A DNA stretch of 34,024 nucleotides. Origin: a virus. The stretch spans positions 1-34,024 of the IMG/VR virus record IMGVR_UViG_3300033141_001026; one strand, 5' to 3'. Made by a program: the position numbers and the translations under genes. The notes below the pieces were generated by a model, which searched no databases, had not been told where the DNA came from, and worked only from the letters and a program-made list of their open reading frames with translations. Positions 1,383 through 32,720 of this stretch are shown in pieces. Numbering within the stretch: the first letter of the stretch is position 1; every line of letters begins with the position of its first letter.

Positions 1383-1494
1383 CTTTAACCCTCCAATTAA
1401 TTAAATCTGGATTCTTTTTCTTTGCTTGTGTTATTGAACTATAATCTAACTCAACCATCTTTAAACTAGTCGGATGTCGAGCTATGATTTTCAT
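1369..1494 (-). CDS. Microprotein (41 aa)
   Basis: A 41-residue peptide beginning MKIIARHPTSLKMVELDYSS. The ATG overlaps the TGA of the upstream HTH gene (ATGA), and GGAGGT lies seven bases before it within that gene's glycine-lysine tail. Both signals support translation. No family is recognised. Confidence 0.6.
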   Translation of the reverse strand: MKIIARHPTSLKMVELDYSSITQAKKKNPDLINWRVKDVRS

Positions 1495-1976
1495 TTCTTA
1501 CCTCCAATTATACCTTTCTCTATTTGATACCCTAATATACATTTAGTCTTTCTAACGTGTAATGCTTGTCTTGTAACACCTAAATACTGTGCAATCTCTG
1601 TCATATCTTGACCCATTATAATATTCCTGTAAAACAACTCTTTATGTTGTTTAGGTAACCAATCAAAGAACTCTTTAATTGCTACTTTATCATCAATACT
1701 CTTATGCATTTTATCTGAACGAGAGTTCCAATCTTCAATTCCATCAGATGATTCAGCTCTTGTCAAGTCTGGTTTAACTCTCCTGTTATACCCATTCAAC
1801 ATTGAATAATACATTATACTTAATGGTCTACTCATACTACTTGCATATATATTCTTCATCGCATCTTGTACTATATCATCGTGTGAATACATTGGACTTT
1901 CAATCTGTGTGGCATATGATTTATTATATGCTATGTTGAGTAAGTCTTGTGCCGTTAAATCTTCTTGTTTTTTCAT
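1491..1976 (-). CDS. HTH DNA-binding protein resembling sigma-70 region 4
   Basis: 161 residues. The C-terminal third (about residues 105-150) reads FDWLPKQHKELFYRNIIM, then an acidic turn and EIAQYLGVTRQALHVRK. This is the pattern of the region 4 / LuxR-type helix-turn-helix, in which an early helix is followed by ...IAxxLgvtrqalxxr. The N-terminal part is not recognisable as a sigma core-binding region, so it is more likely a stand-alone DNA-binding regulator than a working sigma factor. In an archaeal setting such folds occur as transcription regulators. Coupled upstream and downstream by ATGA overlaps. Confidence 0.7.
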   Translation of the reverse strand: MKKQEDLTAQDLLNIAYNKSYATQIESPMYSHDDIVQDAMKNIYASSMSRPLSIMYYSMLNGYNRRVKPDLTRAESSDGIEDWNSRSDKMHKSIDDKVAIKEFFDWLPKQHKELFYRNIIMGQDMTEIAQYLGVTRQALHVRKTKCILGYQIEKGIIGGKK

Positions 1977-2745: not shown

Positions 2746-3420
2746 TTATAATTCACTTATAAATTCCTTTAATGTCTTATAATTAAACTTCCTACAAGTT
2801 TTCATAACTTCTCTATCCTCCTTTATGAGTATAGTTCCGTTTTTTAGGTTAGGCGACAACTTAGCCCAGTTAACTCCTTTATCCATCATCATATCCATCA
2901 TATCCATTTTATTTTTTTTATACAGTTGTTTCTGACTATATAAAGACCTTGCTAACATCTGAATACTGTTTCTCTTCCAATCCTGCATCCTCCATAAAAA
3001 ATAATTAGGTACTTCATTGTCTGGTAATATAAAGGCTCTTGAATCAAACAATCCTTCTCTATCTATCTCTTTACGAGTTAATTGGTTAAACTTATATGTA
3101 GACATTGAAGCAGTAATACTCGCTAATTTTTGGAGTATATTACCGAAATAACATTCTGTTTCTTCCGTCGCTCTGTCGTCTAATAATAAACTGATTTCAT
3201 CAGACTGAGTATAAACCATTTTACAATTCTGTACATTCTCCAAAAGATACTTGGAAGTTTCTTCCATACATTTAATAAAGAGTTTACAAAAAGGTTTATC
3301 TAACCCTCGTGTTAAAGTATGAAAGGCTTTTCCATCTACCCTTATTATTACTGGATGTTTCTTTGGGAGTTTTACTTTAAACACTTGTTCGTATTCCTTC
3401 ATTCTATTTCCTAATTTCAT
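2746..3420 (-). CDS. Thg1-like 3'-5' nucleotidyltransferase (tRNA 5'-end repair or guanylylation)
   Basis: 224 residues, normal for the family. Thg1 and Thg1-like proteins add nucleotides in the 3'-to-5' direction to tRNA 5' ends. Visible motifs: HPVIIRVDGKAFH (metal-binding D29), YTQSDEISLLL (D74, E75), FDSRAFILP, then NYFLWRMQDWKRNSI. The HINNLYN stretch of eukaryotic Thg1 is replaced by KRNSIQMLA, as in the Thg1-like (TLP) group that repairs truncated tRNAs using a template. A longer in-frame start exists at 3501, but its first 27 residues overlap a real Cys4 microgene, while GGAGGAGGAAT lies just before the ATG at 3420, so that start is chosen. Substrate specificity cannot be read from sequence. 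Confidence 0.88.
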   Translation of the reverse strand: MKLGNRMKEYEQVFKVKLPKKHPVIIRVDGKAFHTLTRGLDKPFCKLFIKCMEETSKYLLENVQNCKMVYTQSDEISLLLDDRATEETECYFGNILQKLASITASMSTYKFNQLTRKEIDREGLFDSRAFILPDNEVPNYFLWRMQDWKRNSIQMLARSLYSQKQLYKKNKMDMMDMMMDKGVNWAKLSPNLKNGTILIKEDREVMKTCRKFNYKTLKEFISEL

Positions 3421-3421
3421 T

Positions 3422-3520
3422 TTATTCCTCCTCCTTACCATCACAATCATCCAAATATCTTGGACAGTTCTCACAACCTTGACCGCTTGGGTCACAATCA
3501 TTTAAATCATATTCATTCAT
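3422..3520 (-). CDS. Acidic Cys4 microprotein (32 aa)
   Basis: Begins MNEYDLNDCDPSGQGCENC, with cysteines at 9, 16, 19 and 27 and an acidic tail KEEE, suggesting a small metal site. AAGGTG precedes the ATG. Its stop is one base before the Thg1-like ATG, and its tail encodes that gene's ribosome binding site. It is the first gene after the promoter at 3564-3585. Confidence 0.55.
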   Translation of the reverse strand: MNEYDLNDCDPSGQGCENCPRYLDDCDGKEEE

Positions 3521-7627: not shown

Positions 7628-7792
7628 ATGGGTTTAGTAACAGAATTTGAAGTTAAATGTATAAAGTGCGGTGAGATGTATATGAGACCGCGAAGATTAT
7701 TGGAATCAATTAATCAAATGAATGAAAAGGATATTTGTATTAAATGTAGAGGTAGACAGTTATCTCGACATCCAGTAGTAGGAAGGAAGTAA
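7628..7792 (+). CDS. Zinc-ribbon protein (54 aa) adjoining the terminase
   Basis: Begins MGLVTEFEVKCIKCGEMYM, with CxxC at 11-14 and CxxC at 37-40 and a basic C-terminus (CRGRQLSRHP). AAGGTG precedes the ATG. It overlaps the terminase start by one base (TAATG). A basic zinc ribbon here may bind DNA during packaging; that is inference from position. Confidence 0.65.
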   Translation: MGLVTEFEVKCIKCGEMYMRPRRLLESINQMNEKDICIKCRGRQLSRHPVVGRK

Positions 7793-9414
7793 TGCAGGAA
7801 ATAAAAGTAGATGGTGCGTTTATAAGACGTATGGAAGAATATCGTAAACCTGACAAGACAGTAGGTTTAATTGAAGCATGTGCAAAGAATGTAATTGTAT
7901 TTTCTGAGTATATGTTAGGTTTAAGATTATATGCATGGCAAGTATATTATCTAGTTAAGATACAAAAAGCTATGGATTCTGGTAATACAGATAAAGCTGA
8001 AGACCTAATAAGAGAATTTCTTGCATTAACATCTAGACAGATTGGTAAGTCTACAGCTATAGCAGTATTTTCTAATTGGGTATGTGTATTTAATAAGTAT
8101 CCAGGTACGTTATCTGAGAATACATCAGTATTAATTGCATCAGCTTCTGATGTACAAGCTAAGAAGTTATTATATGAAATGAAGAAATGGATGAAGATTG
8201 GTGATAGGTTTATGCAAAGGACTTATAAGGATGACAGTGATAAAGCTGCATTCGGTGAAGAGTTCTTTTCAAAGTTATTGGATGACGGAGAACCTAATAA
8301 TACAACTACTATTACATTTAGACCTTATGATGAAGAGAAACATGGTTTCTTATTAAAAGGTTCACTGAGTGGCTCTACAATTAAATCGTATCCTCCAACG
8401 AGTAGTGTCCTTGGTGAAACCGCTAGTGTGGTGATTATTGATGAAGCAGGTAAAACGGATAAAATCTCAGATCAGTTCTTTTATGATTACTTATATCCGA
8501 CAGGTAACAGTACTAATGCTGTTAGAATATATGTTAGTACTCCTTGGGTTAGTTCTGGTTTTTTCTACCGCATGGTCGACCCAGATAACTTCTATTCAGA
8601 CACCCCTGCTGATGTTGTGGTGTTTACTATTGATGCTATACGTATTGAAGCACCAGACTACTACAAAGTAGTTATGAAGACAGTTAACCAAATGAATAAA
8701 GATGGTAAGACTGATGAAGTGCAAAGAGCTTATTATTGTAGATTTGTTAAAGGTGAAAAGGCTTATTTTAAACCTGAAAAGATATTTAACATGTTTACTG
8801 ATACATACACTCCTTTAGAATCAACTAAAGATTTATGTGACTTAGGAGTAGATTTTGGTGGACAAACAACTTCTAAGACAGTGTTAACTATATCTAAGTC
8901 TAATGAACAAGAAGAAGTTATTAGGTTATATAAAAGGATATATGAAGTTGGAAAAGATAATAATCTTATTGAAGACATTGAAGAGTTAAAAACCAGGTTT
9001 AACATACAACGTATAATACCTGATGAATGTCCTCAAGGTGATTATTTAATTAGACAGATGGTTGATAAAGGTTGGGAAGTACAGCCAATGAATTTTAGAA
9101 GTGAAAAGATTAAGAAGTATGGTGCTTTTAGAAGTATGTTGAATAAAGGTATGATTAAAAGTTTTATAGATGAAGATTTAAAAACTGAAATGTTAGCTAT
9201 GGAGATAATGAGTGGTAGAAGACAGAGTATCATTCAACATGCACCAGGTTATAGTGATGATGAGATTGATAGTTTTATATTAAGTGCCTATTTCTTTTTA
9301 GTAGAAGAAGGTAAAATGGAGTTTTTTGATTATGAAGGAGAAGAAACAGGAAGTATTTTCGATAGATGGAAAAGAGCAAGGGAACCAAAATATGAAGCGA
9401 GAAACAACCTTTGA
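7792..9414 (+). CDS. terL: Terminase large subunit (ATPase-nuclease packaging motor)
   Basis: 540 residues, typical length. It translocates viral DNA into the prohead and cuts concatemers. Visible parts: YAWQ at 47-50 (adenine-binding type motif), Walker A SRQIGKST at 81-88, Walker B VVIIDEAG at 213-220, a C motif region near STPWVSSG (249-256), then the RNase H-like nuclease with GVDFG (D354), IIPDEC (D411) and DDEIDSF (D490/D493). ATPase and nuclease residues all appear intact. GGAAGGAAGT lies just before the ATG. Confidence 0.95.
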   Translation: MQEIKVDGAFIRRMEEYRKPDKTVGLIEACAKNVIVFSEYMLGLRLYAWQVYYLVKIQKAMDSGNTDKAEDLIREFLALTSRQIGKSTAIAVFSNWVCVFNKYPGTLSENTSVLIASASDVQAKKLLYEMKKWMKIGDRFMQRTYKDDSDKAAFGEEFFSKLLDDGEPNNTTTITFRPYDEEKHGFLLKGSLSGSTIKSYPPTSSVLGETASVVIIDEAGKTDKISDQFFYDYLYPTGNSTNAVRIYVSTPWVSSGFFYRMVDPDNFYSDTPADVVVFTIDAIRIEAPDYYKVVMKTVNQMNKDGKTDEVQRAYYCRFVKGEKAYFKPEKIFNMFTDTYTPLESTKDLCDLGVDFGGQTTSKTVLTISKSNEQEEVIRLYKRIYEVGKDNNLIEDIEELKTRFNIQRIIPDECPQGDYLIRQMVDKGWEVQPMNFRSEKIKKYGAFRSMLNKGMIKSFIDEDLKTEMLAMEIMSGRRQSIIQHAPGYSDDEIDSFILSAYFFLVEEGKMEFFDYEGEETGSIFDRWKRAREPKYEARNNL

Positions 9415-11144: not shown

Positions 11145-11821
11145 TGTCATTTGAAGGACCAAACGATGCTAGTTTACCAGATTATATAATCGAAAGACCC
11201 CCTGCTATCAGAGCTAGATGGGTTATTATATTTAATGATGTATTTGATAGAGAAGGAGAAGAGATGGCTTTTATTGTTGCTAACAAATGGTTAGTAAGAG
11301 AAGTTAATCGAAAAGATTTCGTTAGACAAACATTTACTAAATTAGAATTTGAAGTTAAACAAGGTAAACAACTTATTAAACAAACAGATGGTGGAGATGA
11401 GTATATTGACTTTGTATTAGTTGATACATTACCAGATTCAAAAGGTATATCCTATGAACCAGGAGTACTTAAACAATGGGCTGATGAAATTAATTCAGGT
11501 AAGACTATTGTTGGAGATTTTGATCATTTGTATTATGATAAATTAATGGAAAGTGGTCTTACAGCAAGTGAGATTGAAGAAAAACTTCAAAATAAACCAG
11601 GTATTGCTAAAAGTTTAAAAGCAGTATTTGAAAAAGGTAAATTATGGGTAAGAACCATAATTGATAAAAGATATAAAAAACAGATTGAAAAAGCGAAAGG
11701 TGTTTCGTTAGAAGCGTATTGTGAAAGGGATGAAAATAATAAAGTAATTGAAGGTAACCTATTAGGCTTTACGTTTGGAGTAACAGATACACCTGTGAAC
11801 CCAAGAGCCGTGATAGCATGA
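11144..11821 (+). CDS. Prohead maturation protease
   Basis: 225 residues. Herpesvirus-assemblin-like fold proteases cut scaffold and capsid N-termini before expansion. Visible signatures are EYIDFVLVDT near 86-95, GDFDH with H128, and GVSLEAYCE with S188 as the likely nucleophile, followed by the conserved end LGFTFGVTDTPVNPRAVIA. The order portal, protease, scaffold, capsid supports it. Starts by a one-base overlap with the portal stop. Confidence 0.85.
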   Translation: MSFEGPNDASLPDYIIERPPAIRARWVIIFNDVFDREGEEMAFIVANKWLVREVNRKDFVRQTFTKLEFEVKQGKQLIKQTDGGDEYIDFVLVDTLPDSKGISYEPGVLKQWADEINSGKTIVGDFDHLYYDKLMESGLTASEIEEKLQNKPGIAKSLKAVFEKGKLWVRTIIDKRYKKQIEKAKGVSLEAYCERDENNKVIEGNLLGFTFGVTDTPVNPRAVIA

Positions 11822-12519
11822 AACTACCTAGAGTATTAGTATTTACAATTATATATGAAGCAAAAGAATATTGTCTTGATGAATTTTTAAAACATTCAAA
11901 GGCTATTAATTATCCAAACATAAGACATATATTTGTTGACAATTCAACAACCACAGACTTTTATAAAAAATTAAAAGGTATGGGTTTAGAAGCTTACCAT
12001 GTTGAACGTGGAGCCAATTCACGTGAAGCATTAGCAAGGTCACAAAACTTTGCCAGAAAGATAGCTTTAGATGAAAACTATGATTATTTGTTTTCACTTG
12101 AAAGTGATATTATGTGTCCACCAGATATTATACAAAATCTGATGAAGCATAGTAAAGATATAATATCAGGAGTATATTATATAGGTGATAAATCAAAAGG
12201 TGTGAGAGTACCTTGTATAACATTACCAAAATTTAATGAAGAACTAGGAGCATTTGGAACTCGTTTATTGTTTAAGGAAGAATTTCCACAATACCTTAAC
12301 AAAGGATTAAAACAAGTTCAAGCAGGTGGGATGGGTTGTACATTAATATATAAAAGAGTATTAAAGAGAATACCCTTTACTTACGATCCAAGATTTACAG
12401 GACATAGCGATATTTACTTTTTTAACGAAGCGTTTAGAAAGAAGATACCAGTGTTTGTGGATACAGATATATACTGTGAACATGATAATATAAATTGGGA
12501 CACAGTCGATGATCGCTAA
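11818..12519 (+). CDS. GT-A-type glycosyltransferase inserted in the head module
   Basis: 233 residues. The N-terminus RVLVFTIIYEAKEYCLDEF and IFVDNSTTTDF resemble the nucleotide-binding start of family 2-like GT-A enzymes. LFSLESDIMCPPDII near 91-105 supplies the acidic metal-binding DxD-type motif (ESD), and GHSDIYFFNEAF and CEHDNINWD carry possible acceptor-site residues. It could glycosylate virion proteins or host surface. It begins by ATGA overlap with the protease and is out of place in a head operon, so with the next HNH gene it looks like an acquired insert. Confidence 0.75.
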   Translation: MKLPRVLVFTIIYEAKEYCLDEFLKHSKAINYPNIRHIFVDNSTTTDFYKKLKGMGLEAYHVERGANSREALARSQNFARKIALDENYDYLFSLESDIMCPPDIIQNLMKHSKDIISGVYYIGDKSKGVRVPCITLPKFNEELGAFGTRLLFKEEFPQYLNKGLKQVQAGGMGCTLIYKRVLKRIPFTYDPRFTGHSDIYFFNEAFRKKIPVFVDTDIYCEHDNINWDTVDDR

Positions 12520-13823: not shown

Positions 13824-14741
13824 ATGAGTACAAAAAAAGAATTTATGAAAGCAGCACTAGATACTAGTAATGCATTTATCTCTACTGACTCAGAAGCAGT
13901 TGCTGTTAACCCTAATATTTGGGATTTCAGACTTAGAGATTACGAAGAAAAACAATTAGTTTTCACCCCACAAACTGAACAATTTGATTTCAGAGGATCA
14001 GGTGTAGACTATAAGGTTACAATTGATGAAGCACCATCAGCTGCTGCTGCATTAGTTGAAACTGACGACGTGTCAATCAGTTCATTTACCACAAGACCAG
14101 TTACCTTTACTCCAACAGAGTATGGTGCAGCTTACCAAATAACCAGAAAAGAAGCAGTTAGAGCATTTTTTAATGTTGCTGAAAGAATGGTTGTTAAGCT
14201 TGGATATTCCATGGCACAAAAGAAAGATTCATTAGGTGTATCAACCGCAGTTGCAGGAGCAACCACAGCACTATTAGTTAATAGTAAGTCCGTTACTTCA
14301 GACCTTGCATCAACAGATACATTAGATTACGCATCCATCACTAAGGGAGCAAGATCAATTGAAGCTTTGCTTTACACACCTGTAGATTTGTTTGTTAATC
14401 ATTATGGTAAACAACAACTATTAGACCTAACCACAGTTCATAAAGCTAATGAGTTTGGTACAAGAGACGCAATTGAAAGAGGACTAGTTGGAGAACTATT
14501 CGGTATCCGAATTTTCGTTAGTCATTCTATCCCTGTTGCATCAAGTGCATCAACCGTTGTTATGATGGGAATGTCTAGAACAGGAGAAAAAGCAGTTGGT
14601 TACGCAATCAAGCGAGACCCTATTATAGAACGTGAATATCACGCACTAGGTAGATTCTGGGATATTGTAGGTCATGAAGAATATGACTTCCAAGTACTAC
14701 ACCCTGGAGCAATTTGCACAATTGAACATTACTCAGCTTAA
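13824..14741 (+). CDS. Major capsid protein, HK97 fold
   Basis: 305 residues. Forms the icosahedral shell. The polar N-terminal arm (about 1-60) is followed by a beta-rich region with FTPTEYGAAYQITRKEAVRAFF (about 95-115), a spine-helix region, ASITKGARSIEALLYTPVDLFVNHYGK (A domain), and EREYHALGRFWDIVGHEEYDFQVL near the C-terminus, typical of HK97-like capsids in uncultured tailed viruses. The sequence is richer in C and G than its neighbours, as often seen in highly expressed genes. ACGAGG precedes the ATG; a T-rich tract follows. Confidence 0.88.
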   Translation: MSTKKEFMKAALDTSNAFISTDSEAVAVNPNIWDFRLRDYEEKQLVFTPQTEQFDFRGSGVDYKVTIDEAPSAAAALVETDDVSISSFTTRPVTFTPTEYGAAYQITRKEAVRAFFNVAERMVVKLGYSMAQKKDSLGVSTAVAGATTALLVNSKSVTSDLASTDTLDYASITKGARSIEALLYTPVDLFVNHYGKQQLLDLTTVHKANEFGTRDAIERGLVGELFGIRIFVSHSIPVASSASTVVMMGMSRTGEKAVGYAIKRDPIIEREYHALGRFWDIVGHEEYDFQVLHPGAICTIEHYSA

Positions 14742-27424: not shown

Positions 27425-28012
27425 ATGGAATGGAGTAAGTTATTTCAATTATTTGGATTAGGTAATCCATTTAAGAATATCTGGTACAGATTAGATTGGC
27501 GTAAACCTAATGCTAGTTCTGTTCAAGAGTTCCTTGGAGATAACATATCACAAACAATTCAACTTATGCATGAAGGTAAGTTACCTACATTCACAGGTAC
27601 ACAAGACGAAATTGTATTAAAAATCCTTAGATGGGTTAAGAAGAAATTAATCTATGAAGCGGATTCCAAAAGATTTAAAGTAGCGGAGAAATGGCAAACA
27701 GTTGTTGAAACAATTACATTTAATAGAGGTGACTGTGAAGATGGTGCTATTCTTATTTATTGTATGGCTCGTGCTCATAGAGTATCTGCTTATGCGATTA
27801 GGGTTGTTGCAGGTGATGTACAGAATCCAAACGATAAGGATAAAACTGTTGGACATTGTTGGGTAACCTATTATCCTGATGAATTTTTTGCAACATTCCC
27901 TTATGTTTTAGATTGGTGTTACTATTATGATAAGAATCCCTTTATAAAGGCAGAAGGATATAACCGAAACCTTTATATATCAGAATGGTTTAACATATCA
28001 TATAGTGGGTGA
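27425..28012 (+). CDS. Transglutaminase-like cysteine enzyme (peptidase or amidase)
   Basis: 195 residues. Motifs match the transglutaminase/cysteine protease fold: RGDCEDGAILIYCMARA with C104, GHCWVTYY with H144, and YVLDWCYY with D163, a complete Cys-His-Asp triad. Family members hydrolyse or form isopeptide bonds, and some virus-encoded relatives cut cell walls; archaeal pseudomurein endoisopeptidases use a similar triad. There is no signal peptide and no wall-binding repeat, so wall lysis, DNA entry or virion crosslinking are all possible. The gene carries an embedded promoter near its end. Confidence 0.78.
   Translation: MEWSKLFQLFGLGNPFKNIWYRLDWRKPNASSVQEFLGDNISQTIQLMHEGKLPTFTGTQDEIVLKILRWVKKKLIYEADSKRFKVAEKWQTVVETITFNRGDCEDGAILIYCMARAHRVSAYAIRVVAGDVQNPNDKDKTVGHCWVTYYPDEFFATFPYVLDWCYYYDKNPFIKAEGYNRNLYISEWFNISYSG
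27959..27980 (+). promoter_or_regulatory. Promoter embedded in the transglutaminase-like gene
   Basis: TATAACCGAAAC followed by CTTTATATAT, almost identical to the promoter at 6811. It lies in codons for YNRNLYIS. The predicted start near 28000 precedes the ATG at 28018, so it could drive the two terminal membrane genes. Confidence 0.6.
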
Positions 28013-28905: not shown

Positions 28906-28937
28906 GGGTTTTTCCTTACTTTTTTATTTTATTTTTT
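28903..28937 (+). terminator. Terminator of the late operon between convergent operons
   Basis: TAAGG (28903-28907), loop, CCTTA (28914-28918), then CTTTTTTATTTTATTTTTT. The stem begins with the TAA stop of the last rightward gene and ends on the stop of the leftward gene at 28916. Stem plus T-run resembles an intrinsic terminator. Confidence 0.65.
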
Positions 28938-29218
28938 AAATATTCTACTAATCCCTCATAACTTCTAGACTCTTCAAAAGCACAACAATAAGCTTGATGT
29001 ACTAATTTGTAATCTAAATAATTATGTTTCTTAAACATATGTTCTTGGTTTTTCTTTAATGAAGTACTGAATATTCTATTAGACCAATAATCATAATACC
29101 TAAGTTTCTGATTAATAAAACCTATATCTTCAGAGAGTTCCACAAGATAATCAATACCCTTTGTTCGTTTTAACCTAGTCTCATACTCCTCATGATATTT
29201 ATCTAAAGGACTATTCAT
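28916..29218 (-). CDS. Hypothetical protein (100 aa)
   Basis: Begins MNSPLDKYHEEYETRLKRT. Charged and helical, with YYDYWSNRIFSTSLKKNQEH. Its ATG overlaps the TGA of the glycosyltransferase (ATGA); a TTG six codons upstream is less likely. Last gene of the leftward surface-modification cassette. It might assist the glycosyltransferase; no family is recognised. Confidence 0.6.
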   Translation of the reverse strand: MNSPLDKYHEEYETRLKRTKGIDYLVELSEDIGFINQKLRYYDYWSNRIFSTSLKKNQEHMFKKHNYLDYKLVHQAYCCAFEESRSYEGLVEYLKNKIKK

Positions 29219-29940
29219 TGTCTTGGAGGTAACCAACAGCCATGCTTCTTAATAAAATACTCTTTACCCTTTTCTATATTTTCTTTCCAATCTTCTCTTG
29301 GTCTAATAGAACTGTTATCAATACTGTTTGGTATCTCTTTTAATAGTTTATAGTTTAATATGTTATCAGCAAATGTCCAGAATGGTGTAGTCATACCTGC
29401 CTTACATATTCTGTATGTATGCTCAACATGTTCCCAAGCATTAATAAACTTCTCATCTAAGTAACCTATTTTATCTATACATTCCTTAGTATAATAAGAG
29501 AAAGCTCCAACACAATCAGGGTATACTCTAATACCTTCAATTGTTGATGCACCCTTACCTATATTCATTGGACCGTGTAACGCAAAGTTTAAGTGATGTA
29601 AGTTAAACATCTTAGCATAAGTTACATAAGAGTTACAAGTCTTTGGATACTTCATAAGTATATCATCTTCCATTAAAAACAAATGTTCACACTCAGCCAT
29701 CATTAAAGCTTCTAATCCATTATTCTTTGAATGTGCTATACCACGATTCTCATCTTTAGTAATTATATGTATATTATCTGGTAAGGTCTCTAAGAATTCT
29801 ACTGTACCATCTGTACTACAATCATCAACAACTACAACATAATCAGCACCACCATAATTATTCTCTTTTAGAGATGCTAAACATTGTTTAAGATAATCTA
29901 TTCTGTTGTAAGTCATAATTGCTAATCCTATTTTATTCAT
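29215..29940 (-). CDS. Family 2 glycosyltransferase (241 aa)
   Basis: GT-A fold: MNKIGLAIMTYNRIDYLKQC at the start, VVVVDDCSTDGT at about 35-47 for nucleotide-sugar binding, ENRGIAHSKNNGLEAL, and FLMEDDILM with the metal-binding DD. WEHVEHTYRICKAG fits the later acceptor/catalytic region. It would transfer a sugar from a nucleotide donor to an unknown acceptor. Overlaps genes on both sides; no membrane segment, so cytoplasmic. Confidence 0.85.
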   Translation of the reverse strand: MNKIGLAIMTYNRIDYLKQCLASLKENNYGGADYVVVVDDCSTDGTVEFLETLPDNIHIITKDENRGIAHSKNNGLEALMMAECEHLFLMEDDILMKYPKTCNSYVTYAKMFNLHHLNFALHGPMNIGKGASTIEGIRVYPDCVGAFSYYTKECIDKIGYLDEKFINAWEHVEHTYRICKAGMTTPFWTFADNILNYKLLKEIPNSIDNSSIRPREDWKENIEKGKEYFIKKHGCWLPPRQ

Positions 29941-30229
29941 TTTTCTTATACCACTCTTGTAAATATTTAGGAAACGTATCTCCTGTCAATTTTCTTACAA
30001 CATACTCCTCAGCAAAATCAGTACAAGTTGTTGCATCTTCTATTGCTATATGTATTGTCTCATGTATATAAGTATCCATAAAAATTATTGTAAACTTATC
30101 TACTGTATTAACAGGAGCAATTTGTCTAGCTTTATTCCAACAGTATGTTAAATTAACATATATACTGTCACCATCTCTAAAACCATATAATTCATACTCA
30201 TCTAAATTCTTCACTATCTTTGTTTTCAT
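29933..30229 (-). CDS. Minimal HExxH zincin-like protein (98 aa)
   Basis: Begins MKTKIVKNLDEYELYGFRD and contains IHETIHIAIEDATTCTDFAEEYVV. HETIH is the HExxH zinc-peptidase motif, and a downstream glutamate (EEYVV) could be the third ligand. At 98 residues it is a minimal metallopeptidase domain. Location between two glycosyltransferases suggests processing of a shared substrate, but this is inference. Start by ATGA overlap; a longer GTG start is possible. Confidence 0.7.
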   Translation of the reverse strand: MKTKIVKNLDEYELYGFRDGDSIYVNLTYCWNKARQIAPVNTVDKFTIIFMDTYIHETIHIAIEDATTCTDFAEEYVVRKLTGDTFPKYLQEWYKKNE

Positions 30230-30906
30230 ATATCCCACTTTTTATTATATATTTGTTGACATATAGCCATGTGACCTGTAACACCTAATGCTTTACCTTC
30301 ACTACTAGTTCTATGGTCTAATGTAACATTCTTATCAAGTACTATAGTACCATCACCATATTCATTTCTAATCCTTCTACAATAATCATCATCTGCATAG
30401 TAACCTGCTCCTGTAAGTTTCTCTTCTAAGAATCCTATCTCATCAAATACTTTATAAGGAATTAACCATGCTACTGATGGATACATGTTACAAAAACAAT
30501 GATCTTCATTTGAATCTATGTATAAATGGTTCCTTGCTGTTATAGGTAATTGATCCCTTGGACATATAATAGTACTTTTAGTCTTCTCAGCTGTCTTAAC
30601 TAACTTACCTAACCATCCATTCTCTCTTGGGAATGAATCATTACCAACAAAGAATATGTAATCACTATCAGGAGGTACTGCTGTTAACCCTGCATTTAAT
30701 GTCTTACAAAATCCAATATTTTCTAAAGATACATACCTAGTTACAAAAGGATGTTCAACATGAGACTCTTCTCCTTTAACCCAACCATGTACTAATACAC
30801 ATTCAACTTTAAACTTCTCATCTTTAGTTGTCTCTTGCATCTTATCAAGAAACTCTAATGTTAACTCATACTGAGTATTATATGCTACAACAATCGATAC
30901 TTTCAT
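30226..30906 (-). CDS. Family 2-like glycosyltransferase (226 aa)
   Basis: Begins MKVSIVVAYNTQYELTLEF, a typical GT-A start; ENIGFCKTLNAGLTAV is the conserved helix, and YIFFVGNDSFPREN gives the NDS metal-binding variant of DxD. GAGYYADDDYCRRIRNE supplies later acidic residues, and VTLDHRTSS a conserved histidine. Cytoplasmic enzyme with unknown acceptor. Coupled to the methyltransferase upstream and the zincin downstream by ATGA overlaps. Confidence 0.82.
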   Translation of the reverse strand: MKVSIVVAYNTQYELTLEFLDKMQETTKDEKFKVECVLVHGWVKGEESHVEHPFVTRYVSLENIGFCKTLNAGLTAVPPDSDYIFFVGNDSFPRENGWLGKLVKTAEKTKSTIICPRDQLPITARNHLYIDSNEDHCFCNMYPSVAWLIPYKVFDEIGFLEEKLTGAGYYADDDYCRRIRNEYGDGTIVLDKNVTLDHRTSSEGKALGVTGHMAICQQIYNKKWDI

Positions 30907-31526
30907 TTACTACTCACCTCAAAGAATCCATTACCATATGGATACTTACTAGTCCATTTCTTTTTTACATCTTTAAATTTATAATTAAATCTTAATAACC
31001 TAAATCCTGCATTATTAAACTGATTTATCCACCAATCTTCATCTTTCTTTGTAACATGTGTTACATCAATCTCATACTCTCTAATCCTAAACTTATTGTT
31101 ATCACCTAAAGGTATAACGAAAAAAGCTATCTTACATCTATTTTTTATCTGCTTTAAAATAATAGGTATTTCATCCTCATGTATATGTTCTAAGACATCT
31201 TTACATATAATAAAATCATACTTCTTATCAGTAGGTTTACTAAGATATTTTTTCACAGATGGATGTGCCTGTTTTAATGCATAATCACTTATATCCTCAC
31301 CATAAGCATTTATATTTAATTGCCTCAAAGTATGAACCAAAAATCCTTTAGCACAACCAAAATCTAATACATTATCAGCCAATTGTAATTGTATATTACA
31401 TTTATCCAAAATACTTAACGCTTCCTCATAACTTCTAGTTGGCATATAACTAAAGTTTTCGTAACCAGATACTCCTTTAGTTATACCATTTTCATAATAA
31501 TCTTTATTAAACAAACTTGACATCAT
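30903..31526 (-). CDS. Class I SAM-dependent methyltransferase (207 aa)
   Basis: Rossmann motifs: VLDFGCAKG at 53-61 (SAM binding), YGEDIS near 75-80, and DFIICKDVLEHI near 104-115. The sequence before residue 50 (NKDYYENGITKGVSGYENF) resembles methyltransferases of glycan and small-molecule pathways (YYE.......YEnf type). No DNA-methyltransferase catalytic motif was seen, so a sugar or peptide target is more likely than DNA. Overlaps the radical SAM gene by 20 bases. Confidence 0.85.
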   Translation of the reverse strand: MMSSLFNKDYYENGITKGVSGYENFSYMPTRSYEEALSILDKCNIQLQLADNVLDFGCAKGFLVHTLRQLNINAYGEDISDYALKQAHPSVKKYLSKPTDKKYDFIICKDVLEHIHEDEIPIILKQIKNRCKIAFFVIPLGDNNKFRIREYEIDVTHVTKKDEDWWINQFNNAGFRLLRFNYKFKDVKKKWTSKYPYGNGFFEVSSK

Positions 31527-32472
31527 CTACCTCTACTATTAAACTCTTTAATATTTCATTTTGTTTGGTGTATTTACAATAGCTACACCCTCTATCTTTG
31601 ATTTGAAACTCTTTCTCATAATATCTAACTATATCATCTATAGCACATATTCTAAAAGCTTCAGGTACTGTCTTACCATTCTCTGGTGCTAATTCTGAAC
31701 TAGGACATGAGTATACAAAACCATCTGGGAATACAAATGGTTTAATCATATGTATCATACATTTGTCATCTATTCTGTCGCCTAAATAAGTATTGAAATC
31801 AGATATAAAAGCATATTTATTATCCCATAATTTAGCTTCATAACCTTTTAATTTATCAATTAATTCTTGTATATCTTCTTTAGGTTGAATACAATCAGGA
31901 GTTATTCTAGTTGGTATTTTATTCATATTAGCAAATGAAGTAATATCATAAAATATTGATTCTGTTATATCTTTACTAGCTACATAACATGCAGTAACTT
32001 TGGTAAATTCTTGCATCTCTTTAACTGTACTCTTCCAAGCAGACCTGTCTTTATACTTATCAAATACATTCATAGATACTCTAACCCAATCGAATAATGA
32101 ATAGTCTAAATCAACATTCTTTACTAAACCATTAGTACACATACCAACAGCTAACCCTAAATCTTTAGCTTGTCTAGTTGCATCAGCTAACCCTCTATAT
32201 AATGTGGGTTCACCACCACCTGTCCATTCAATAGCTTCAGCACCTACTATCTTAACCGACTCTAATAAGTCACTTAATTCTTTAGTACTTAATTCTAAAC
32301 TCTTATCTCTACCTTCAAAACAACAATGAGTACATGTCATATTACATTTATTAGTTGGAGCTATATGAAACATTACTGGTTTAGCTACACCATTTTGAAT
32401 ACTCTTCAAGTTATCTAAATGTTTAAACAACTTAACTTCATTACTTGTTATACTATATTTAGTATTCTTCAT
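31507..32472 (-). CDS. Radical SAM enzyme with C-terminal cysteine cluster (321 aa)
   Basis: PTNKCNMTCTHC holds the CxxxCxxC iron-sulfur site (C43, C47, C50); EWTGGGEPTLY is the conserved GGE motif for SAM. The C-terminal part has YSCPSSEL, RICAIDD and CSYCKYTKQN, so at least five cysteines could bind an auxiliary cluster in the SPASM/twitch style. Such enzymes modify peptides, sugars or nucleotides by radical chemistry. AGGTG precedes the ATG at 32472; a GTG two codons earlier is possible. First enzyme of the cassette. Confidence 0.88.
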   Translation of the reverse strand: MKNTKYSITSNEVKLFKHLDNLKSIQNGVAKPVMFHIAPTNKCNMTCTHCCFEGRDKSLELSTKELSDLLESVKIVGAEAIEWTGGGEPTLYRGLADATRQAKDLGLAVGMCTNGLVKNVDLDYSLFDWVRVSMNVFDKYKDRSAWKSTVKEMQEFTKVTACYVASKDITESIFYDITSFANMNKIPTRITPDCIQPKEDIQELIDKLKGYEAKLWDNKYAFISDFNTYLGDRIDDKCMIHMIKPFVFPDGFVYSCPSSELAPENGKTVPEAFRICAIDDIVRYYEKEFQIKDRGCSYCKYTKQNEILKSLIVEVDDVKFV

Positions 32473-32596
32473 TTCCACACCTGCTACATTTAACTCCTAC
32501 GTTCTTCTTATGTTGAAATGCCTTAGAATGACTACATCTAGGACATAACTGTTTAATTATATAGGTTGTAAACTTTCTCTTTCCTCTTCTATTCAT
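32459..32596 (-). CDS. Basic zinc-ribbon microprotein (45 aa)
   Basis: MNRRGKRKFTTYIIKQLCPR opens a basic peptide with CPRC and CSRCGNEEY, a CxxC-x15-CxxC zinc ribbon. A longer frame to 32644 exists, but its first part lies in the overlapping MSPED gene; GAGGAAGAGG lies just before the ATG at 32596, so that start is chosen. It overlaps the radical SAM start by 14 bases. Confidence 0.65.
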   Translation of the reverse strand: MNRRGKRKFTTYIIKQLCPRCSHSKAFQHKKNVGVKCSRCGNEEY

Positions 32597-32720
32597 CCTC
32601 TTCCTCACAACTACAACTGTCATCATCTTGCCATTGATACTCAACTAAGGTTCCACAAGACATACATTCATAACACTGTTTACCTGCAAACCATTTTTCT
32701 CCTCTATCTTCTGGACTCAT
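32589..32720 (-). CDS. Cys-rich acidic microprotein (43 aa)
   Basis: Begins MSPEDRGEKWFAGKQCYECM, with CYECMSC (C16, C19, C22) and a later CSC before an acidic tail. GGTAGGAA lies just before the ATG. It overlaps the next gene by eight bases. A metal-binding role is inferred. Confidence 0.6.
   Translation of the reverse strand: MSPEDRGEKWFAGKQCYECMSCGTLVEYQWQDDDSCSCEEEDE

Follow-up and report, generated by a model that had tools for sequence, protein, structure and literature searches.

An exchangeable cassette with a radical SAM–methyltransferase gene pair, predicted to tailor a glycan in a lineage of tailed viruses

Virion glycosylation in viruses of prokaryotes is known from few phages, and the literature that we searched describes glycosyltransferases (GTs) and a methyltransferase only. 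In mycobacteriophages, phage-encoded GTs attach sugars to the capsid and tail tube proteins, and in cluster O three tandem GT genes lie downstream of an O-methyltransferase gene (PMC11600133, PMC12363180). According to PMC12363180 and PMC11600133, Freeman et al. 2023 reported virion glycosylation of Che8, Corndog and Myrna; the GT gp110 of Che8 is essential for capsid glycosylation. Here we analyse a cassette of overlapping genes in IMGVR_UViG_3300033141_001026, a 34,024-base record of a small tailed virus that was examined over its whole length (the window). The cassette encodes a radical S-adenosylmethionine (SAM) enzyme (rSAM), a class I SAM methyltransferase (MT) and two GT2-family GTs (GT2a and GT2b). 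It resembles the mycobacteriophage systems in having soluble phage GTs in tandem and, as in cluster O, a methyltransferase gene. It differs in that no rSAM has been described there and in that the cassettes of the window's lineage vary between relatives and switch slots. Taken together, the observations below suggest that this exchangeable cassette probably tailors a glycan, most likely one that is carried on the virion.

A conserved radical SAM–methyltransferase pair

The rSAM gene (31507-32472, minus strand, ATG at 32472; Pfam Radical_SAM, 6.4e-11) overlaps the gene of its conserved partner, the MT (30903-31526, minus strand; Methyltransf_23, 8e-13), by 20 bases, or by 17 with the second ATG as start. 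As a single-sequence query, rSAM gave no match in viral contigs and alignment queries were needed; viral contigs were thus scanned with an MT alignment and with an rSAM alignment, 80 loci being taken from each scan. rSAM was found just upstream of MT in 72 of the 80 MT-seeded loci, and MT just downstream of rSAM in 49 of 78 rSAM-seeded viral loci and 16 of 19 cellular loci. The 141 instances of the pair fall into 28 clusters (65% rSAM identity), the two genes overlapping in 79% of the clusters, mostly by 4, 14 or 17 bases. Pairwise distances for rSAM and MT are correlated (Mantel rho 0.45, p 0.0005; 25 cluster representatives). The two genes form a conserved pair that occurs both in phages and in sugar loci of bacteria, and no description of the pair as a unit was found in the literature searched, which covered few subscription papers.

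An earlier note on this DNA, made from its sequence, had drawn attention to extra C-terminal cysteines in the rSAM. These belong to a twitch-type auxiliary motif. The core CX3CX2C motif (C43, C47 and C50) and the GGG(E/D)P motif are invariant among 59 homologues, and the auxiliary CX12GX4C motif (C238-X12-G251-X4-C256) is followed by C296-X2-C299; C238, C256, C296 and C299 are invariant in the same homologues and G251 is nearly so. The cysteines needed for a functional cluster, the loss of which would have spoken against the note's proposal, are therefore all retained. C276 is also kept in the closer rSAM subfamily. The spacing fits the motif that defines twitch and SPASM domains, CX9-15GX4C (PMC6231123). 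The full seven-cysteine SPASM motif is absent, there being only CX2C and no CX5CX3C, and because this second half is missing, one auxiliary cluster, of the twitch type, is expected. Outside the cysteine motifs, the last residues of the chain are xF and then one that is small or aliphatic (xF[A/V/I]) in 103 of 105 rSAMs from pairs (residue 320 in the window); this tail may perhaps serve in active-site closure or in docking of the MT. Two long phage cassettes of glycan type (L087, 390-9931; L088, 3338-11955) hold two twitch-type relatives of rSAM along with GTs and MTs, as well as a further large protein whose start resembles that of B12-binding rSAMs.

The structure prediction that the earlier note had called for gave a confident AlphaFold2 model of rSAM (pLDDT 93.3, pTM 0.91). 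The closest folds are DesII (Z 21.1), SkfB (Z 20.7), SuiB and BlsE (Z 18.7); viperins (Z about 17) and BtrN (Z 15.7) are also among the matches. The substrate of DesII is a TDP-amino sugar and that of BlsE a cytosyl sugar, both of which would suit the glycan context of rSAM, whereas SkfB and SuiB are maturases of ribosomally synthesized and post-translationally modified peptides (RiPPs). The Foldseek/VIA match list does not split the sugar rSAMs from the peptide rSAMs, and because DesII and SkfB are nearly tied, the substrate cannot be told from the fold by itself. The sugar rSAMs of the twitch/SPASM type (DesII, BlsE, BtrN and SpeY) share their fold and the CX9-15GX4C motif with the window rSAM, and only 12-16% identity. 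We know of no enzyme of the DesII, BlsE, BtrN or SpeY type that is paired with such an MT or that ends in the xF[AVI] tail.

The fold matches also raise the question of whether rSAM could be a viperin-like antiviral or superinfection-exclusion enzyme that makes modified nucleotides. The PADLOC pVip model does match rSAM (6.9e-15). However, the NCBIfam viperin model reaches only 44.2 bits against a curated cut-off of 180, and the match spans the core only. The C-terminal CX12GX4C...CX2C cysteines are invariant in the rSAM family, and neither the MT partner nor the glycan-type neighbours of the pair fit such a role, which we regard as highly improbable.

Sugar genes beside the pair

To define the context in which the pair occurs, three genes on each side of it were scanned with Pfam in viral and cellular loci. 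The neighbours in both are GT2 proteins, NAD-dependent epimerases/dehydratases, UDP-glucose dehydrogenases, DegT aminotransferases and TylF methyltransferases. In Nealsonbacteria (L165 and L167), the pair lies among aminotransferases, epimerases and a cytidylyltransferase-like gene, as judged by eye. In a KSB1 genome (L169), it lies inside a sugar cluster that ends in flagellin and FlaG, with rSAM and flagellin 6.4 kb apart on one contig; in Propionivibrio dicarboxylicus, two flagellin genes lie ~30 kb from the pair on the same contig. The KSB1 locus places the pair in a flagellin glycosylation island, a cellular system with its own synthesis of nucleoside diphosphate (NDP)-sugars, whereas the window virus has only the late steps. 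On the viral side, the pair and a GT stand beside a tail tube gene in one contig (L112). Two bacterial genome bins (L170 and L174) hold pairs that adjoin phage-structural-looking genes; these loci are probably prophages or phage contigs in the bins, and the two L174 proteins that were tested had no Pfam match.

The pair is also carried by named phages. Synechococcus phage SynMITS9220M01 (MT408532) has the same overlapping rSAM-MT-GT order, with an rSAM 39% and an MT 56% identical to those of the window. Its GT comes from another family, and the phage is a large myovirus in which the pair lies among heptose genes and carbamoyltransferase-like genes, a cluster read by its authors as one for lipopolysaccharide (LPS) synthesis (PMC7378029). 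Pelagibacter phage HTVC008M (KC465899) has the same overlapping pair, followed by carbamoyltransferase, NadE-like and UDP-glucose dehydrogenase-type genes, and lacks GT2a and GT2b. These neighbourhoods suggest that rSAM and MT most likely act on a sugar or glycan rather than on a peptide or DNA, and the flagellin cluster points to a glycan that is protein-linked at least once. Of the three products offered by the earlier note, a modified glycan or glycopeptide, a modified virus-encoded peptide and a hypermodified nucleotide, the glycan is thus favoured, given that pairs sit among NDP-sugar enzymes and GTs in phages and bacteria.

The peptide option would have rSAM modify a virus microprotein, which would then be glycosylated and methylated, with an HExxH protein encoded in the cassette as leader peptidase. 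The gene set does recall a RiPP cluster, two of the closest folds are maturases, and small Cys-rich open reading frames (ORFs) lie just upstream. One of these encodes a Zn-ribbon microprotein (32459-32596, minus strand) that overlaps the rSAM start by 14 bases and was not found in relatives, and the other a Cys-rich microprotein (32589-32720, minus strand); the membership of both in the cassette is doubtful. The suggestion that such an upstream microprotein is the substrate fares poorly, as the microproteins are Zn-ribbon-like and are not conserved with the pair. Near 29 rSAM-MT pairs, no conserved small ORF, and hence no conserved candidate precursor, was found beyond shadows inside the two genes, with the sole exception of one small antisense set within a neighbouring gene. 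Moreover, rSAM, at 321 aa, has no extra N-terminal domain of the size of a RiPP recognition element, and the HExxH protein is not conserved. We consider this option very unlikely. In one relative (G379; L270, 958-1658, plus strand), HExxH-containing and Cys-rich small proteins are encoded just upstream of rSAM; no homology to those of the window was found.

For nucleotides, the GTs would glycosylate a modified DNA base, and rSAM and MT would modify that sugar. Such an activity would agree with the position of the cassette downstream of DNA polymerase I and with a triad of rSAM, MT and a GT2a homologue (L089) that lies among replication genes with a GTP-cyclohydrolase-like gene; a GT2b homologue also has a sub-threshold score to TET-associated DNA GTs (25.2 against a cut-off of 27.5). 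By contrast, no thymidylate-synthase-like hydroxymethylase (PF00303) was detected in 17 virus records, which are fragments, under conditions in which positive controls were detected. No match to Tet_JBP (PF12851) was seen, although its positive control also went undetected, and cellular rSAM-MT pairs lie in sugar loci, not in DNA-modification loci. DNA hypermodification is therefore disfavoured, and we judge it improbable.

A head-module glycosyltransferase and exchangeable cassettes

A further GT gene of the window, GTh (Anp1 / GT2-like; 11818-12519, plus strand; Pfam Anp1, 3.9e-9), lies in the interval between the prohead protease and scaffold-major capsid protein (MCP) genes. Relatives of the virus were retrieved with GTh and with an alignment of the terminase large subunit (TerL; 7792-9414, plus strand); they are mostly fragments of unproven completeness, in which the absence of a gene is weak evidence. 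Among the terminase-retrieved relatives that cover the interval, 25 of 27 have GTh between the prohead protease and MCP genes, a count that is free of circularity because the set was retrieved by terminase and not by GTh. GTh is a core gene of the virus lineage, and by analogy with the mycobacteriophages its position next to the MCP gene points to targets in the capsid or tail, the MCP (13824-14741, plus strand; Phage_capsid_4, 3.7e-9) being a candidate glycan carrier. In another contig (L135, 5241-7217, plus strand), a GTh homologue seems to be interrupted in frame by an intein-like insertion several hundred residues long, which starts with CFQGDTQIETINGAKKI and ends with AVHNC.

Around this fixed gene, the cassettes differ. 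One relative (G379/L270) has the order rSAM-MT-MT24-GT2-TerL-portal-protease-GTh-MCP, which places its cassette directly upstream of the terminase gene. In the same position, L244/G381 has a GT, L246 has a homologue of a GT from the relative G364, and G367/L239 (5650-6629 in L239), L226 and L227 have a LicD family gene with a cytidylyltransferase gene, a combination that suggests a decoration of the phosphocholine or glycerol-phosphate type. Contiguous GT2a and GT2b genes lie upstream of the portal gene in L229/L238, with the GT2b homologue beside portal in L238 being 55% identical to that of the window; in L250, a GT2b homologue (36% identity) lies between protease and GTh. GT2a was found in other viruses by scanning in L089 alone, in which it directly follows rSAM-MT (48% identity), and L229 was added later. 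The slot that the window cassette occupies is flanked by polA-HNH and by the end of the late operon, which converges on it; here G364/L236 carries a different cassette, MT-GT-MT, and G374 has no recognisable glycan cassette, indicating that the cargo is variable.

In a tree, the window rSAM groups with chromosomal copies from Nealsonbacteria (support 0.988) and the G379 rSAM with that of L089 (support 1.0). Because these are separate clades, the lineage most likely gained the rSAM-MT pair twice. The finding of different sugar-modifying genes at identical or equivalent sites in relatives suggests that cassette swapping is how these viruses alter their sugar coat. The terminase had no match in GenBank phages and, in a search without positive control, none in 333 genomes of the Nealsonbacteria phylum, in which the rSAM family is rare (2 of 333 genomes).

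Family searches place terminase, portal, capsid and tape measure genes on the plus strand of the window. The minus-strand operon begins with the C-terminal end of polA, a family A DNA polymerase (34024-33833, minus strand; VHDE motif present), and continues with HNH, a nuclease-like ORF and Zn ribbons before the cassette, in which rSAM and MT are followed by GT2a (30226-30906, minus strand; Pfam Glycos_transf_2, 3e-5), the HExxH protein (98 aa; 29933-30229, minus strand), GT2b (29215-29940, minus strand; Glycos_transf_2, 3.6e-17; phrog_2456, 7.9e-33) and ORF6 (100 aa; 28916-29218, minus strand). MT and GT2a overlap by 4 bases, GT2a and the HExxH protein by 4 (ATGA), the HExxH protein and GT2b by 8, and GT2b and ORF6 by 4. 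Promoter and terminator scans gave scores not above those of shuffles.

The earlier note had described five genes joined by overlaps of 4-20 bases as a single unit. All five are present on the minus strand with those overlaps; a sixth, ORF6, is coupled in the same manner, and the genes 5′ of the cassette mostly overlap by 4 bases too. Since the whole early operon is so tightly packed, overlap alone is no proof of a five-gene functional unit, and comparative linkage counts instead. Searching other viruses for the gene order, as the note had proposed, showed linkage beyond chance for rSAM-MT, rSAM-MT-GT2a (L089) and GT2a-GT2b (L229/L238), so that these four genes recur linked rather than scattered; in the comparative loci, such linkage was not seen for the HExxH protein or ORF6. 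The HExxH gene is absent between GT2a and GT2b in L238, and its product had no match in Pfam, PHROGs, the PDB, phages or viral contigs and did not align with a small HExxH protein of G374. Its single-sequence model (pLDDT 41) is uninformative, and the motif, on which its description as a minimal zincin had been based, is weak when taken alone because a second small ORF of the window carries one too. Likewise, ORF6 had no family match in Pfam, PHROGs or NCBIfam-type model searches. Both are orphans that may not belong to the cassette.

Several other genes were seen in the course of the analysis. The window, in which no tRNA genes were detected, encodes Thg1, a tRNA-His guanylyltransferase (2746-3501, minus strand; phrog_4717, E 2.4e-80); a transglutaminase-like protein near the end of the late operon (27425-28012, plus strand; Transglut_core, 2.5e-8), which is kept in G364; and a weak sigma-factor-like protein (1491-1976, minus strand; phrog_1740, E 3.8e-4), which may hint that the host is bacterial. 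In L236 (11212-12114, minus strand) and L272 (7225-8103, minus strand), an SG(G/S)KSYHxH stretch is reminiscent of archaeo-eukaryotic primases; one of the two was tested and had no Pfam match.

Proposed action on a virion-linked glycan

No transmembrane-like segment was found in any cassette protein (maximum 19-residue hydropathy 0.22-1.06; 0.83 on the Kyte–Doolittle scale for GT2a), and genes for NDP-sugar synthesis are absent from the window cassette. Because it encodes neither NDP-sugar synthesis nor membrane proteins, the cassette would depend on NDP-sugars supplied by the host cytoplasm, and because GTh is fixed in the head module with mobile cassettes adjoining, the sugars would be attached to virion proteins during assembly. 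In the proposed pathway, GTh, a product of the late operon, would initiate a sugar on a protein of the head or tail, or lengthen one already there, and GT2a and GT2b would add further sugars from host NDP-sugars. rSAM, with one auxiliary [4Fe-4S] cluster, would abstract hydrogen from a sugar carbon, leading to oxidation, deoxygenation or epimerisation of either an NDP-sugar or the growing glycan. MT would then methylate the rSAM product or a neighbouring position, such that rSAM and MT cap or convert the glycan after its extension by GT2a and GT2b. This fuller picture, in which a fixed head-module GT works with exchangeable operon-sized cassettes and the pair performs radical chemistry on a virion-linked sugar, is put forward tentatively, at slightly less than an even chance.

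Alternatively, the cassette might alter a glycan of the host surface (LPS, capsule or another envelope glycan) and thereby, for instance, prevent superinfection or adsorption to debris. The pair occurs in surface-polysaccharide loci of bacteria (Nealsonbacteria L165 and L167), and it may act on host surface glycans, because the heptose enzymes clustered with it in the cyanophage SynMITS9220M01 were read as LPS synthesis (PMC7378029). Furthermore, phrog_2456, the family of GT2b, holds GTs catalogued as moron/host takeover, and the window cassette lies in an early-type operon. Against this, the cassette has no membrane protein, flippase or membrane-anchored GT, unlike Gtr-type O-antigen conversion with its flippase GtrA and membrane-anchored GtrB/GtrC, and in related viruses these genes are neighbours of terminase, portal and GTh. 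We therefore regard action on the host surface as unlikely, although with a real share of the probability, and favour attachment to the virion.

Linkage of GT genes to structural genes, a pattern expected of phage virion glycosylation, is seen here in the position of GTh and in the cassettes before TerL or portal. Several observations nevertheless weigh against a virion-linked glycan. The window's own cassette lies outside the late operon, in the minus-strand operon headed by DNA polymerase. GT2a and GT2b gave no significant alignment with Che8 gp110, and GT2b, with no detectable similarity to it, has distant similarity to gp109; GT2 is a broad superfamily for which target prediction from sequence is unreliable. 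The near tie of DesII with a peptide enzyme counts here as well, and of the 13 genomes with flagellin, one has it in close linkage to the pair and another in loose linkage (30 kb). The window rSAM and MT differ in their nearest relatives (rSAM 47% to L165, MT 60% to L114), so the pair may itself recombine. Finally, this virus lineage has no cultured member.

Environmental phage contigs hold the rSAM-MT pair in abundance, and bacterial glycan loci contain it as well; it offers enzymology a well-bounded target, and some cultured phages carry it. If the proposed role is correct, a radical SAM enzyme takes part in virion glycosylation, and the swapping of cassettes provides a route to a new sugar coat. 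Virion glycosylation would then be chemically richer, through radical SAM chemistry, and modular, with cassettes replaced at defined slots.

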